In this document: positions 1-7,527 of the stretch, in pieces
How positions within the stretch are numbered: the stretch's first letter is position 1
How the letters are laid out: every line of letters begins with the position of its first letter
Origin: an uncultured Barnesiella sp.
Lineage (GTDB): Bacteria > Bacteroidota > Bacteroidia > Bacteroidales > Barnesiellaceae_A
NCBI GenBank assembly: GCA_944321085.1
Contig: CALUJY010000001.1
Span: forward strand, 278,671 to 342,670
Length of the DNA stretch: 64,000 nucleotides
Reading direction: 5' to 3'
Notes under the pieces: generated by a model
Database searches by the model: none
What the model was told of the DNA's origin: nothing
Seen by the model: only the letters and a program-made list of their open reading frames with translations
Program-made: the position numbers and the translations under genes

Positions 1-183
1 GATTTGATGGGTATGATAGCTGCATTGCCTGCGGGATTTCGCACGGTATTCAACATGTATGCCATAGAGGGCTATTCGCATAAAGAGATAGCCGATATAT
101 TAGGCATCAGCGAAGGTACATCGCGTTCCCAATATAACAGAGCGCGAAATTTGATACAGAGAAAAATTCAAGAAATGCAATAA
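1..183 (+). CDS. ECF-type RNA polymerase sigma factor, C-terminal end (partial)
   Basis: The gene is cut by the window edge; 60 codons remain before a TAA stop. The visible part is a sigma region 4 helix-turn-helix, with LPAGFRTVFNMYAIEGYSH followed by KEIADILGISEGTSRSQ, the pattern that reads the -35/-33 promoter element. The next gene starts 11 bases later on the same strand and encodes a protein with a short cytoplasmic N-terminus and one membrane helix, so the pair probably forms a sigma / membrane-partner operon. The missing N-terminus prevents a finer family call. The start lies outside the window. Confidence 0.85.
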   Translation, partial: DLMGMIAALPAGFRTVFNMYAIEGYSHKEIADILGISEGTSRSQYNRARNLIQRKIQEMQ

Positions 184-1827: not shown

Positions 1828-2454
1828 TTACAATGTAGTGTGTGTCAGCATTACCTCAGCCATGGAATGATTTCCAATAATATCGTAAACGGACGCTGCA
1901 CAACGGTAGCAAAGTGCGTCGACAATAGCCGGCGCAAGATTGTAGCTTGTGGCATCGTCGTCGGGCGGGGCGATGCAGGTTAGTTCTATGATGCGGTGCT
2001 GTTTGCAGGATGGAGGGAGTGAGTAGTAGTCTATGATTTGTTTCCCATTGCTATCGGTGCCCCATACGGCAACAGGCTTTGCTGTTCCGCCGCGAGTGAA
2101 GAGGTTGAATTGTAGTTCGTAGCGCGGGTCGTTTATGGTAATAAACTGTGTTACGGGGCGTTGCCACCCCTCCATGAGTAGCGATACAGGGCGCAGCATC
2201 TCGGTGTCGAGTGTAATACGTCCGCTGCCATCTTGGCGCTTTTGAGGTTCGGGAGGATTCGGGTATGCCTCAACCCACAGCAGATGAGGCGGTGCAATGA
2301 GGGCTATTGCCCGTAATGTTTCGCTTATCTTGGCATCGATGTAGCGGTCTATGGTTACACCTTCGTTTTGTGAGAGTGTGCCGTCCCACACAGGAGGTAG
2401 TTCCTCCATGCAACATTTGGTGCGGGAGATGATTTCATCGCGGGTTATGTTCAT
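1828..2454 (-). CDS. Phage adaptor-like structural protein (hypothetical)
   Basis: This 208-residue soluble protein has no signal peptide or membrane segment. It is last in a four-gene minus-strand cassette, and its start codon overlaps the stop of the tail-fibre-like gene by four bases (ATGA). The C-terminus, SYNLAPAIVDALCYRCAASVYDI followed by IGNHSMAEVM, has the look of head-tail connector/adaptor proteins that accompany SU10-type capsid genes in Bacteroidales phages; this rests on context and remembered resemblance, not on a diagnostic motif. Codon use and base composition resemble the surrounding chromosomal genes. It could be an unrelated domesticated protein. Confidence 0.5.
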   Translation of the reverse strand: MNITRDEIISRTKCCMEELPPVWDGTLSQNEGVTIDRYIDAKISETLRAIALIAPPHLLWVEAYPNPPEPQKRQDGSGRITLDTEMLRPVSLLMEGWQRPVTQFITINDPRYELQFNLFTRGGTAKPVAVWGTDSNGKQIIDYYSLPPSCKQHRIIELTCIAPPDDDATSYNLAPAIVDALCYRCAASVYDIIGNHSMAEVMLTHTTL

Positions 2455-3359
2455 ATAGGAGTATCTCTTAGGCCATCGGCGGTAATGGTGAAACGTTTTT
2501 TTATGAGAACGCCTCCTACACTACTGACAGAGCCTTCCAAAAGAGAAATCTCGTTGGCTGTGATATTGGTGGCGTATATCGTGTCGTTTACGATATGGGT
2601 AAAATTTTGTTGTACATATTGCTCGTTTTCTCCGGTACCCTTTTTTATGGAAAGGTTGGCAATTTCTTTTCCATTGGAGTCGGTGATGCTCAGAGTACAC
2701 ATTTCCGGCGACAAGACCAGCATGCCGTTGCCGTCTTGTTCTATCACTTGCAATCCTGTGGCAAGGACAGAGAAGCCGTCGACAGTTTCCCATACTTGTG
2801 TTGAATCGGGTGAGACTGCTGTAAAAGATCCGAAGAGATGGAGCCGGTAGTATTGCCCGTTGTAGAGTACGACATCGATATAGGTATTGTTGCGATGGTA
2901 GGTTTCGTCTTTGTTCCATATTCCGCGATAACGGTGAAAGACGAGTGGCGATAAGGAAATAGGGTAGACGTGGCTTTCCCATTTGCTTCCGTCCCAGTGT
3001 AAGAGGATAATGCTTGATTGTGAGCACGGCACCTCTATTTTTATCATCGTTCCCGGCAGTTTGGGGAATCCGTATGAGCCGGCCGTTGTTGCTACATAAT
3101 AGTAGAGAGCCTCTTTATTGGCGATGATAGAAGGCGAGAAGGTCTCGGGGTCGGTAATCATCCCCACTAAATCGGGAGCACTTGCGTAGTTTGTGTCGCA
3201 CCAGCATGCAGTGACGGGGTTCCACATCCATAGGGTCGATGTCTCGCCGTTCAAGAAGAAGCTGCCTGCTTCTCCTCCCTCGGGATAACAGCTTTGCAAT
3301 GCTTCGAGGCTGCCGTAATATCCGAGGTATCCGGCTATACATTTGTGCAGTATTTTCAT
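2451..3359 (-). CDS. Phage tail-fibre-like protein
   Basis: The 302-residue protein starts with GYYGSLEALQSCYPEGGEAG and then TSTLWMWNPVTACW, the pattern of the N-terminal unit found in many phage tail or fibre proteins of Bacteroidales (a length-plus-value unit with a TiWvWd strand). Around residues 143-190 there is YRGIWNKDETYHRNNTYID with a following VLYNGQYYRL, resembling the small carbohydrate-binding fold (CBM5/12-like) in fibre proteins. The C-terminus, NITANEISLLEGSVSSVGG, looks like the repetitive beta structure at the end of a fibre. It lies between the capsid-like and adaptor-like genes and overlaps the latter by four bases. The binding target is unknown. Confidence 0.55.
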   Translation of the reverse strand: MKILHKCIAGYLGYYGSLEALQSCYPEGGEAGSFFLNGETSTLWMWNPVTACWCDTNYASAPDLVGMITDPETFSPSIIANKEALYYYVATTAGSYGFPKLPGTMIKIEVPCSQSSIILLHWDGSKWESHVYPISLSPLVFHRYRGIWNKDETYHRNNTYIDVVLYNGQYYRLHLFGSFTAVSPDSTQVWETVDGFSVLATGLQVIEQDGNGMLVLSPEMCTLSITDSNGKEIANLSIKKGTGENEQYVQQNFTHIVNDTIYATNITANEISLLEGSVSSVGGVLIKKRFTITADGLRDTPI

Positions 3360-3511
3360 GTGAGTAGTTCGTTATAAGTTGTTTCTATTTCAGATATTCA
3401 TCTATTAAGAATTATCCTTGAATAAATGCAATAGGAGGTATGTCGTAATAGAGTGTCGTGACGTATTCTTTGCGATATGGATAATCATCAGATGAGGATG
3501 GCTTTGTGTGC

Positions 3512-3547
3512 AGGGCTGTGGCAGCTCCTTCCTGTTGCCACAGCCCT
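3512..3547. terminator. Strong hairpin after the capsid-like gene
   Basis: Perfect 12-bp arms AGGGCTGTGGCA and TGCCACAGCCCT enclose a 12-base loop, 14 bases beyond the stop of the capsid-like gene. There is no T-run in either direction, so it may be a weak terminator or an mRNA-stabilising 3' hairpin that raises capsid-gene expression over the distal genes, as is common behind capsid genes. Confidence 0.5.
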
Positions 3548-3561
3548 GAGAGAAGACAAGA

Positions 3562-4959
3562 TTATTCGCTGACAGGTACAATACGCATGTGTGCGGCAGG
3601 GTAACGGAGTGTCAGACAGCTTGCCTCGGTGAGGACAAGAGCATCGGTATTGCGGATACCGGCTTTTTTAAGATCCAAGGCTTGCGAGCCAAAAGGTACG
3701 TGCGACCACTTTTGGATATACTCGGGGTCGAAGATAAAGCCATAGTCGCTCATGCCGCAGTCGTCGAATACCTCAGAGTGCAAGACGTAGAGTCGGCCGA
3801 ACTTCGAGCTGATTTCGTTGAAATCGATACCCCATTTTACCATATTTTTATCGCCCTCCACGATTTTGGCCGTTTCAATCTTGTTGATGCGTCCAATGAA
3901 GTCGGAACCTCCGATGAGCACTTTGCGCTTGTTGCCGGCATTCCCCGTAAATGACATTTGCATCATATCTACAAGGTCGCTTTGTGTGAAACCGACGGAG
4001 GGGTCATACTCGTATTGCTTGCCTGCTTGCCACCAAATACCGCCGGTGAGGTTGACGTACTCTTTCTTCAAAGTGTCATAGACTTTGTGCTTGACACCGA
4101 ACATGAAGGTCTTTTCCATGCCAAGGCGCATATCGTATATGGCAGCCTCTTCTTGGTCAGAGAAGTCCCATTCTACCTCTTTGTTGGCAATTTTTTGAAG
4201 AGTCGATTGCTCGATTTGCATTTTGAAGATTTGGCAGTAGTTTTGTTCCTTGACGGGCAGGCTTTCAAATTGGGCGGTCTGTACGTCGAGCTCGGTGGCG
4301 GCGCGTCCCATGCGGATGAGGCAAGTGCCGGCGGGAATAGTGGGAACACAGTCTGTTATGGTTCCTAAGGTTTTCCCGTTTGCGACGTTTACAAGCGGTG
4401 CGCCTGTGTTGAGGTCTTTGGTGTATACGTATAACACGAGGTCGGCTTGCGAGGGCGTCACTCCGTCGCTTTCGTATCCTTTTACGCCCTGTACGAGTAT
4501 GGTGTCGGATATCTCAAATATATCGTTGTTGGCGGTGTCCAACTTGGCACGGCGGTTGTTGGCCGTGGCAGCGCTTCCTTCCGGTTCTGTATAAGCTGTT
4601 TTCAGCGTGGTTTTGGTAGGTTTCACATCTACCGAGTAGTAGTCTACAATCATAGAACCCGCTTTTCGAGCCCCTTTATAACGCGATATTTGGTCTACGG
4701 GTGTGGACATGGGGCGGATTTTTACGATGCGGTTATCTATTTCGCTTTGAAGCAGCGACGGGCTGTATTCGCGCGTCAGTTCGGTGGTAAGAGGTTGGCC
4801 GCTCACTATATTGCCTGTTGTCATACCGGGCAGTATTGCTGCGATGCAATAGGCCGAGGCATCGGCAAAGTTGCCTATCAGCAAGACAAAGAGCAACATA
4901 AGCGAGATGGAGATAATCCATTGCGTAGATGAAATTTTCTTAAATGTTTCTGCTTTCAT
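3562..4959 (-). CDS. Major-capsid-like protein (SU10-type, HK97 fold) with N-terminal membrane segment
   Basis: The 465-residue protein from about residue 60 on resembles SU10-type major capsid proteins: SPSLLQSEIDNRIVKIRPM then TPVDQISRYKGARKAGS and VDYYSVDVKPTK, followed by a region rich in beta strands and ending with VFDDCGMSDYGFIFDPEYIQ. Residues 14-30 (WIISISLMLLFVLLIG) form a hydrophobic helix after a basic start (KAETFKK), which free phage capsid proteins do not carry. An internal Met at residue 46 (codon 4822-4824) would yield a capsid without the helix, but no ribosome-binding or A-rich leader precedes it, whereas the chosen start follows an A-rich leader typical of Bacteroidales. 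The neighbours are scaffold-like, fibre-like and adaptor-like genes. The fold is inferred from sequence pattern only. Confidence 0.6.
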   Translation of the reverse strand: MKAETFKKISSTQWIISISLMLLFVLLIGNFADASAYCIAAILPGMTTGNIVSGQPLTTELTREYSPSLLQSEIDNRIVKIRPMSTPVDQISRYKGARKAGSMIVDYYSVDVKPTKTTLKTAYTEPEGSAATANNRRAKLDTANNDIFEISDTILVQGVKGYESDGVTPSQADLVLYVYTKDLNTGAPLVNVANGKTLGTITDCVPTIPAGTCLIRMGRAATELDVQTAQFESLPVKEQNYCQIFKMQIEQSTLQKIANKEVEWDFSDQEEAAIYDMRLGMEKTFMFGVKHKVYDTLKKEYVNLTGGIWWQAGKQYEYDPSVGFTQSDLVDMMQMSFTGNAGNKRKVLIGGSDFIGRINKIETAKIVEGDKNMVKWGIDFNEISSKFGRLYVLHSEVFDDCGMSDYGFIFDPEYIQKWSHVPFGSQALDLKKAGIRNTDALVLTEASCLTLRYPAAHMRIVPVSE

Positions 4960-5106
4960 ACTTTTTGTTGTTTTTGGGATGTTTTATAAATGAATTGTTT
5001 GTGAGCTTCTCCTCTTGTGCATCGTGCGAAATGTTATAGTGTCAATGGTAGTTTATAGGAATGAGGCCGTGGCATGTGAGGAGAGGCGTTTTGTTTTACT
5101 TGGAGG

Positions 5107-5862
5107 TTACATGTCCCACACACTGCGACGGCGGCGAGGACGGCGGTATCCGCCAGTTTCGTTATTCCCGTTTTTGTGAGGTAAGGCGGGTAGATTGTCG
5201 CCGGCGCTTTCGCGGCGCGAGAGAGTAATGCGTTCGTTACGGCCTTTTATTTCGGCGGCATGTTCGGCACACGGAAGGTCGGTGTCGTAGCGTAACCCTT
5301 TGTAGAGGAGTTCCAGTACATCTACTGTGAGGTCTCCGGCAAATACGTGGCGGCATACGTGGAACACGCGGTCGAGGAAATCGTCGAACTCTGTTTCGTC
5401 CATCTGTTTGGCACGCATAAAACGCTCGATGTGACGTGCGCTCTGTTCTACGTTGCGACGCATCGACTCTTCAAGTTCCATGTAGCGGCGATTTCGAGCT
5501 TCGAATTCCTCGTTGGCACGGCGTATGGCGTGCATGTAGCGTTCGTCGCCGGCGTGGTCGAACATATCTTTGCCGAAGTAGCGTATGCACGCTACCACTG
5601 TATCTTCGCCATCGGCGACATCAGAGATGAATGCTCCCATCTTGGGGTTTTTGCACATCAGCTGGCATAAACGATTTTGGTCGCTTAACATCTGCTCGTA
5701 GTGTTGCGAGAGTGCGTTGTCGTACTCGTCGAGAGCATCGTAGAAGTCGTCTTCGTTGGCAAACTGACGGTCGGGGTAGCGTTCTTGCAGTCGTCGTGCA
5801 ATACGTTCGCGAGCGCTTTCACGGGCGGTTCCCCCGCCACCGGTAATGTTGTTTCTGTTCAT
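5107..5862 (-). CDS. Scaffold-like coiled-coil protein (hypothetical)
   Basis: This is the first gene of the capsid-like cassette. The 251-residue protein is strongly charged and almost entirely helical: residues 14-75 contain RESARERIARRLQERYPDRQ and a DFYDALDEYDNALSQHYEQM heptad-like stretch, and residues 115-160 are a long Glu/Arg helix. The C-terminus is a disordered, very basic tail (GGYRRPRRRRSVWDM). A helical protein of this size immediately before a capsid gene is what scaffolding proteins look like; the basic tail could bind nucleic acid or the capsid interior. No sequence motif proves the role. A weak -7 candidate (TTACTTTG, minus strand, 5917-5924) lies about 55 bases upstream of the start. 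Confidence 0.5.
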   Translation of the reverse strand: MNRNNITGGGGTARESARERIARRLQERYPDRQFANEDDFYDALDEYDNALSQHYEQMLSDQNRLCQLMCKNPKMGAFISDVADGEDTVVACIRYFGKDMFDHAGDERYMHAIRRANEEFEARNRRYMELEESMRRNVEQSARHIERFMRAKQMDETEFDDFLDRVFHVCRHVFAGDLTVDVLELLYKGLRYDTDLPCAEHAAEIKGRNERITLSRRESAGDNLPALPHKNGNNETGGYRRPRRRRSVWDM

Positions 5863-6123
5863 AACAAGTTTTTTTTACAAGTTGATAATCATTAGTCCCG
5901 TTTCCCTCGGGCAATGCAAAGTAACAACCTGTAAGTCGCCGTGTCATGCGATAGTGTGCCGTCTTGTAGCGGGCATCGTTTTTTTTGACTTCGGGCATTG
6001 TGAAAAGATTTGTCTCTCCTTATTTTCACCCGGAATGTTACAACGTATGGGTAAAAATCTTATCTTTGACCATACAAAAAGCCGTGATTTGCAAATTCAA
6101 ATAATAAATTAAAAGCGTATATT

Positions 6124-7527
6124 ATGTTTCCTGCACAAACTTATGTTACCCGCCGCGACACGCTACGCAAGATGATAGGAAGCGGCATTATTTTGCTGCC
6201 CGGTAATAGTGATATGGCTATCAATTTCCCCAATAACGCAGGAGCCTTTCGCCAAGACTCTACGTTTCTCTATTATTTCGGGCTTGCCAATGCCCGTTTG
6301 GCAGCTATTATAGATATTGACAACAACTGCGATACGCTCTATGGCGATGATGTCACAATAGACGAGATGGTGTGGACAGGACCTGTGCCTGCTCTTGTGG
6401 ATTTGGCTGCGAGTGTGGGTGTGAAACATACGGCTCCGCTGGCTGCATTGCCCGACGCTATTGCTGCGGCTCGCCGCGAAGGTCGTACAGTACATTACCT
6501 CCCGCAATTCCGGGGTATGGAGCTTATCAGTATGTCGACATTATTGGGTGTGCCTGTACAGCAGGTCAACGATGGCGTATCGCCAGACCTGATGATGGCC
6601 GTGACCCAAATGCGCGAGATAAAGAGCGATGAGGAGATTGCCGAGATGGAGAGAGCTTTCCATGTAGGCTATCTGATGCACACTACTGCCATGTCGATGT
6701 GTCGTGAGGGCGTAGTGGAACGTGAAATCATAGGAGCAATAGGTGGTATAGCCATGCAATATGGATGGGGCTGCTCGTTCTTCTCGCATGTGACGCAACA
6801 TGGCGAGATATTGCATAATTTTAGTTGTGATGGTAAGCTCGTTAACGGGCGCCTCCTTTTGTGCGATGCAGGTGCCGAGCTAATTTCGGGCTACTGTTCT
6901 GACCACACACGTACCTATCCTGTGAGCGGAAAATTTACAACGCGGCAACGCGAGATATATGAGATAGTGTTACGGGCTCACGACCGTATTATAGAGGTGG
7001 CACGTCCTATGCGTTATCAGGACTTGCACAATGAAGCTCTTTATACCATGGCCTGTGGGTTGGCCGATTTGGGCATTATCAAAGGCGACCCTCGCGAAGC
7101 TGTGGCAGCCGGAGCGATGGATATGCTTATGCCGCACGGATTGGGGCATGGCATGGGGCTCGATGTACATGACTGCGAGTCGATAGGCGAACGCGGCGAC
7201 GTGTATAATTTCCCCTTCTCGCGTGTAGCCGACCGTGCTGCCGCCATTGCATGTTGCACGTGCCGCAAGGTATGGCAGCTGCGTCCCGGCGTTGTTATGA
7301 GCGACGAGCCCGGGTTGTATTTTATACCGGCGCTTATAGAGCAATGGAAAGCCGAAGGACGTTGTAAAGATTTCCTTAACTACGACTTGCTGGCTTCGTA
7401 TTACGACTTTGGCGGTATCCGTATCGAGGACGATATTATCATCACGGCCGACGGTTGCCGCCGTGTAGGAGGCGATAAGAAAATTCCTATTATGGTAGAA
7501 GAGCTCGAAGCCGTTGTAGGCAGGTAA
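6124..7527 (+). CDS. pepP: Xaa-Pro aminopeptidase (M24B)
   Basis: The 467-residue protein removes N-terminal residues that precede proline from peptides in the cytosol. It has the N-terminal aminopeptidase P domain (about 1-165) and the pita-bread M24 domain. The five metal ligands are visible in order: D248 (LLCDAGAE), D260 (CSDHTRTYP), H342 (MPHGLGHGMGLDVHD), E395 (SDEPGLYF) and E435 (IRIEDDI). Length and motif order are normal for Bacteroidales enzymes. A -7 box TATCTTTG is at 6061-6068, giving a leader of about 50 bases. It is transcribed divergently from the capsid-like cassette and is not obviously related to it. Confidence 0.93.
   Translation: MFPAQTYVTRRDTLRKMIGSGIILLPGNSDMAINFPNNAGAFRQDSTFLYYFGLANARLAAIIDIDNNCDTLYGDDVTIDEMVWTGPVPALVDLAASVGVKHTAPLAALPDAIAAARREGRTVHYLPQFRGMELISMSTLLGVPVQQVNDGVSPDLMMAVTQMREIKSDEEIAEMERAFHVGYLMHTTAMSMCREGVVEREIIGAIGGIAMQYGWGCSFFSHVTQHGEILHNFSCDGKLVNGRLLLCDAGAELISGYCSDHTRTYPVSGKFTTRQREIYEIVLRAHDRIIEVARPMRYQDLHNEALYTMACGLADLGIIKGDPREAVAAGAMDMLMPHGLGHGMGLDVHDCESIGERGDVYNFPFSRVADRAAAIACCTCRKVWQLRPGVVMSDEPGLYFIPALIEQWKAEGRCKDFLNYDLLASYYDFGGIRIEDDIIITADGCRRVGGDKKIPIMVEELEAVVGR

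Follow-up and report, generated by a model that had tools for sequence, protein, structure and literature searches.

The capsid cassette of the window, which is the whole stretch of 64 kb analysed here, was with a probability of about 0.8 the head module of a podovirus-derived system resembling gene transfer agents (GTAs), spread over at least five loci. The system is described here from its genes: its gene set corresponded to the needs of a short-tailed, DNA-packaging particle with lysis, and it is in this sense that it works like a GTA. Virus-like particles are probably produced by the gut bacterium concerned, and its own DNA could reach other cells in them. The best reading of the wider survey was that a GTA-like system exists in six or more family-level groups of Bacteroidales (labelled f below), including Barnesiella. 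The sequence-only reading had offered four options for the cassette, namely a domesticated particle, a satellite borrowing a helper phage, a GTA-like system and a compartment, and the third of these was the fitting one.

Table 1. Loci (A to E) and features of the system in the window and elsewhere in the window's own genome (G000); positions without a contig name are those of the window.
Locus	Feature	Position	Strand	Basis or remark
A	Scaffold/capsid/fibre/adaptor cassette	1828-5862	-	
A	Scaffold-like protein, 251 aa	5107..5862	-	phrog_22323 E 1e-31 (unnamed family) and position
A	Major capsid protein, SU10/HK97 type, 465 aa, hydrophobic N-terminus	3562..4959	-	SU10_MCP, HK97 fold
A	Tail-fibre N-terminal (virion-anchor) protein, 302 aa	2451..3359	-	Alignment to L017 and Barnesiella-locus fibre-like proteins
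A	Head-tail adaptor, podovirus type, 208 aa	1828..2454	-	phrog_22135, model matches
A	Capsid-operon promoter TATCGCA-22 bp-TTACTTTGC	5916..5953	-	No second match in the window; 0 mismatches
	pepP (aminopeptidase P)	6124..7527	+	Conserved host flank, outside the system
B	TerL	G000:C9:86150-88051		With small upstream ORF (TerS candidate); divergent from 208-, 104- and 864-aa virion-type genes
C	Portal	G000:C4:95653-97131		
D	Tail nozzle	G000:C8:103538-105763		Between men genes and rpmB
E	Lysis cassette (holin-like, M15 endolysin, spanin-like)	G000:C1:245092-246154		
E	M15 endolysin	G000:C1:245325-245729		Left of the window, at a distance of 33 kb

The four open reading frames were present on the minus strand as first read, and were flanked by an OMP-type gene and pepP (Table 1). 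The capsid protein matched Pfam SU10_MCP (E 2.5e-49) and phrog_26635 (E 8e-104), and its AlphaFold2 model (pLDDT 69, moderate confidence) matched the HK97-fold proteins VP1 (Z 12.1) and SU10 (Z 11.1) as well as the RcGTA capsid (6tb9; Z 10.5). The proposed SU10-type capsid was thus confirmed, and the fold whose absence had been named as a ground for rejection was present. The adaptor model (pLDDT 88.8) matched the podovirus adaptors of Carin-1 (Z 10.8), GP4 (10.0), SU10 (8.6) and T7 gp11 (about 7), and the A4 and N4 adaptors were also among its structural matches, in line with the earlier assignment. The scaffold was named by its position beside the capsid gene, its orthologue standing before the capsid in complete phages and in all relatives of the genus. 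The product of 2451-3359 could be aligned to the N-terminal part of tail-fibre-like proteins from phages, as had been suggested, and in complete Bacteroides phages the scaffold-like and fibre-like genes had the same neighbours as in the cassette. The fibre gene was absent from the capsid operon of the eight other genus members, and receptor-binding tips were missing or unrecognised in the window's own genome, where the 302-aa fibre is short. The hydrophobic, signal-like start of the capsid protein ended in a lipobox-like SGC or TGC in many relatives (L018-L056); such a start was present in phages too, and some Prevotellaceae and Muribaculaceae copies were without it. At the left edge of the window (1-183), the apparent 3' end of an ECF-type sigma factor gene lay beside the OMP-type gene, near the cassette.

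The capsid gene was found in all nine genomes of the genus, in the order scaffold-capsid-adaptor and in single copy when separate prophage copies are set aside. The capsid genes of the relatives shared 60-71% amino-acid identity with that of the window over the matched length and contained no stops. The cassette stood beside pepP in every genus member with that flank covered, no full prophage was found at this site in relatives, and no integrase or attachment site was seen beside the cassette. Separate prophages of the same phage family did occur in the genus (G002:C32, called L096; G001:C45, called L097; and G005:C77) and had their own TerL and portal. An ordinary or recent prophage at the site was therefore rejected, since only four phage genes were present locally, further parts of the system stood on other contigs and true prophages of this kind were separate in relatives. 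Among the 392 Bacteroidales genomes drawn, 35 contained the capsid gene, almost all of them in one copy, and these genomes were concentrated in certain genera; in Barnesiella it was a single-copy gene in 9 of 9 species.

No homologues of the portal, TerL, nozzle or endolysin were found within the window, and the sole copies in the genome were at four other loci. The earlier statement that the packaging and lysis genes were absent was thus right for the window but wrong for the genome. With a TerL query taken from L017, a phage-like contig that is related, a TerL unlinked to the capsid was detected in 9/9 genomes of the genus, and profile searches detected the portal, the nozzle and the endolysin in 9/9 each. 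The neighbourhoods were syntenic among these genomes: host genes and divergent virion-type genes around TerL, an aldehyde dehydrogenase gene adjoining the portal, and men genes on one side of the nozzle with rpmB/ftsY on the other. TerL matched terminase PHROGs and T4 gp17. Its motifs LKARQWGGST, ESTA and ESNTLE were retained in all nine genomes; VDVGG was not literally found in the window's own copy, nor G(E)HDDI in two others. The portal matched P22_portal (E 1e-39), and no solved structure matched the nozzle by sequence. The lysis cassette comprised an M15 peptidase (phrog_894 endolysin, E 5e-34), a lipoprotein and a small membrane protein with two helices; no endolysin of this type was detected in f28, f60, f67 or f105. 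The 864-aa protein of locus B had no HMM or phage match and was called virion-type by position only. In-frame stops were reported within the portal matches of G317, G220, G281 and G140, and these may reflect an early stop, readthrough or decay.

The dispersed genes occurred together or not at all. Among 48 genomes, those with the capsid had TerL in 27/28 cases and the portal in 28/28, and those without it had neither (0/20 for both). When four genomes with prophage-like sets, linked or mostly linked and kept for comparison (G027, G345, G278, and G357), were left aside, TerL and portal accompanied the chromosomal-type capsid copies in 23/24 and 24/24 genomes, respectively. Fisher's test gave about 1e-12, a value that is indicative only since the genomes are related; the pattern of whole genera was the stronger point. 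The nozzle was found in 17 of 18 genomes of f105, f60, f67, f28, and f86 and in none of the 20 negatives; in f25, 4/6 genomes gave a weak match. Near-complete assemblies showed that the loci were truly separated: in G263 the capsid was located at 1,395 kb, TerL at 1,427 kb, the portal at 1,149 kb and the nozzle at 1,132 kb.

A shared promoter motif, TATCGCA, 22 bp and (T/G)(A/T)nCTTTGC, was located upstream of the capsid, TerL, portal, nozzle and lysis loci. In the window, the match was directly before the scaffold gene, against a chance mean of 0.13 even with one mismatch allowed. At least 13 of 15 positions were matched in 38 of 43 upstream regions, with a spacer of 22 in those 38, compared with 0.1% of shuffled regions; the pattern was picked after these regions had been viewed, so that this significance is descriptive. 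The lysis cassette was an independent confirmation, since it was uncovered by scanning the genus with the motif alone, through recurrent hits; additional members of the system were sought by this motif only. The scan gave 15-23 hits per genus relative against 2-9 for a reversed control, but in the window's own genome motif and control gave 7 hits each, and the promoters there were degenerate at TerL (TATAACA), portal (TATTACA) and lysis (TATTGCA). The f60 loci and the f67 capsid operon had TATCGCA or TATAGCA. Strict scoring with the genus motif yielded no significance in Barnesiella or at part of the f28 and f67 loci; Barnesiella needed a variant of its own. This variant, TGCCA-22 bp-CTTTG, preceded the capsid, TerL and portal operons in 10/11 regions against 0.2% of shuffles, and its 17 hits in the 243 kb examined were all at system operons. 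The CTTTG half resembles the Bacteroidetes -7 box (TAnnTTTG), with a different element in the -33 place. The shared promoter apparently switches the loci on together. Hits upstream of engB and of a tRNA-modification-type gene (two genomes each) were set aside as probably due to chance. An HTH gene beside pyrK/pyrD had a TATCGCA-22-TTTACCTTTG promoter in four to five relatives (L180-L183), and it may be a candidate regulator or a chance hit.

The system genes were intact and under purifying selection. In orthologous close pairs, dN/dS was 0.05-0.08 for TerL, 0.08-0.09 for the portal, 0.03-0.13 for capsid and scaffold and 0.05-0.13 for the scaffold alone; the decay that would have spoken against the earlier proposal was not found. 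A tree built from six concatenated system genes had 4/5 splits in common with one built from concatenated host flank genes, as did 6 of 5000 random trees, and the system gene trees thus largely followed the host tree, which indicated vertical descent. Together with the constant site beside pepP, this bore out the suggested domestication. The scattering of the genes is in itself what would be expected if rearrangement had dispersed an old prophage whose remains were kept piecemeal for unrelated functions, and the genus does contain related prophages that are intact (G002:C32 and G001:C45). However, such an origin was very unlikely in view of the all-or-none co-occurrence, the intact reading frames, the dN/dS mostly below 0.1 and, above all, the dedicated shared promoter, whose sequence had shifted in step at three Barnesiella loci.

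Another alternative starts from the cassette itself, in which four genes stand without packaging genes nearby: these alone would form the capsid of a satellite or a cargo compartment. Some Muribaculaceae loci, which retain just a scaffold-like gene next to the capsid gene, would suit it. However, the genes were inherited vertically, no integrase or attachment site was seen, and the genome has a TerL, portal, nozzle and lysis genes of its own behind the common promoter, which left this alternative with hardly any probability. The same genes ended the description of the cassette as stand-alone, and with it both the satellite borrowing a helper and the compartment. A phage satellite or capsid-forming chromosomal island was likewise rejected, because the site and flanks were the same across the genus, no integrase adjoined and the trees followed the host. 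An encapsulin-type compartment was dismissed on account of the scaffold, portal, adaptor and TerL, and no cargo enzyme was found in the capsid operon.

The GTA-like reading agreed with three of the features by which GTAs are recognised as viriforms (PMC9662315); the definition further asks that the system's own genome be incompletely packaged, that mostly random host DNA be packaged and that this DNA be delivered to other cells. Structural proteins derived from Caudoviricetes were represented by the capsid, adaptor, portal, TerL, nozzle and endolysin (by HMM, fold or phage homology). Endogenisation at multiple loci was seen in at least five loci, single-copy and syntenic in nine genomes, with which near-complete assemblies of other families agreed. 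Vertical inheritance and co-diversification were seen in the four of five host splits, the single copy in 9/9 Barnesiella and the monophyly of the dispersed TerLs. We propose that a putative regulator fires the shared TATCGCA-22-CTTTG promoters jointly, in some cells. Scaffold and capsid would then build a procapsid on the P22-type portal, and the T4-gp17-related TerL would package DNA, which would be mostly host DNA because the system's own genes are scattered and hardly packageable as one genome. If the capsids hold a few tens of kb, it also follows from the dispersal that the system's own genome would not be fully packaged. Adaptor, nozzle and fibre may close the particle, holin, endolysin and spanin may lyse the cell, and the particles may deliver their DNA to relatives. 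Points that speak against this reading are the missing or unrecognised receptor-binding tips, the degenerate promoters and the motif count no higher than its control in the window's own genome, the families without this endolysin and a mixed result on amino-acid composition.

Killing particles typically have a contractile tail, whereas the tail here was of podovirus type (adaptor and nozzle), and no immunity gene was seen at the system loci. It was therefore unlikely that the particle is PBSX-like, packaging host DNA but serving as an antibacterial weapon instead of a gene mover. A weapon of this kind would nevertheless need the same gene content, the conserved lysis cassette would suit it, and PBSX itself packages random pieces of host DNA, 13 kb in size, but does not transfer them (PMC7667829).

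Only a few GTA families are recognised, in alphaproteobacteria and spirochaetes (PMC9662315), to which a Faecalibacterium GTA was added in 2026 (PMC12946183). The open-access literature searched contained no report of a GTA from Bacteroidales, an absence that is weak evidence. Like the present system, RcGTA (Rhodogtaviriformidae) is Caudoviricete-derived, chromosomally fixed at several loci (five in RcGTA), vertically inherited and built on an HK97-fold capsid (PMC9662315). In contrast to RcGTA with its siphovirus-like tail, the system described here had a capsid of the SU10_MCP family, a P22-type portal and a podovirus adaptor and nozzle; it also had no main cluster (portal and nozzle were single-gene loci), belonged to a different phylum and used a shared promoter with a 22 bp spacer. 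BhGTA of Brachyspira (Brachygtaviriformidae) also has dispersed loci, host co-diversification, an endolysin and TerL (PMC9662315), although it is from a different phylum; the comparison covers these described features. FpGTA I and II are likewise from a gut bacterium, have more than one operon and encode proteins like those of short-tailed phages; they belong to Bacillota, are encoded in two compact operons of 10.5 and 5.5 kb, and their particles and DNA have been shown (PMC12946183), whereas the system here had at least five loci, was in Bacteroidota and is read from its genes. Homologous scaffold, capsid, adaptor, portal and TerL were present in the temperate Bacteroides phages BF1-TP2, BKO1-TP3 and BS-TP4 and in the prophages L096 and L097, with a nozzle homologue in BKO1-TP3 and L096 and an annotated tyrosine recombinase in BF1-TP2. 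These viruses have one contiguous genome of about 65-68 kb and fell outside the dispersed-TerL clade. Alphaproteobacterial GTAs are reported to have a carbon-poor amino-acid composition; here the result was mixed, with a lower value in TerL and not in the capsid.

If the reading is true, gut commensals such as Barnesiella exchange chromosomal genes via host-controlled particles, and a host-owned DNA-packaging particle fixed in whole gut Bacteroidales genera would be a new route of gene flow in the gut microbiome. The parts of such a system are easily missed by prophage finders because each comprises one to four genes among housekeeping genes; they come to light through their co-occurrence and shared promoter.

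The TerLs of f1, f105, f28, f60, and f67 formed one clade outside phages. The capsids of the dispersed lineages also formed one clade, except that L017 and L029 were nested inside it. These two contigs were phage-like, with linked TerL and lysozyme, and their TerLs were outside the dispersed clade, which suggests that a phage and the domesticated system may have exchanged the capsid module. The degree of dispersal differed among families. In f86, the capsid, fibre, holin-like and endolysin genes were still together, with host genes before TerL. In f67, TerL and the portal-nozzle pair were less than 10 kb apart with ribosomal-protein genes between them, and in f60 and f28 the portal adjoined the nozzle. 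Portal and nozzle were about 14 kb or more apart in Barnesiella; in the genus of the window they were separated by tens of kb or stood on separate contigs. The number of clusters or loci was two in f67, three in f60 and f28, four in Barnesiella and five in the genus of the window. We consider it fairly probable that a podovirus-derived Bacteroidales GTA, with a gene content unrelated to the recognised GTA families, was ancestral to at least five family-level groups and was progressively scattered, its function being held together by a dedicated promoter that co-evolves with a putative regulator. The series across families makes it directly testable how a virus becomes the cell's own machinery. 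In the Muribaculaceae-like f25, capsid, adaptor and portal were adjacent with TerL often far away, or there were only scaffold-like and capsid genes; this arrangement may or may not be the same domestication. In the Muribaculaceae and Prevotellaceae MAGs L031-L053, the capsid gene and a short scaffold-like gene alone stood between host genes, with a prolyl-oligopeptidase-like gene as an example of an upstream neighbour, and these capsids were 54-62% identical to that of the window.
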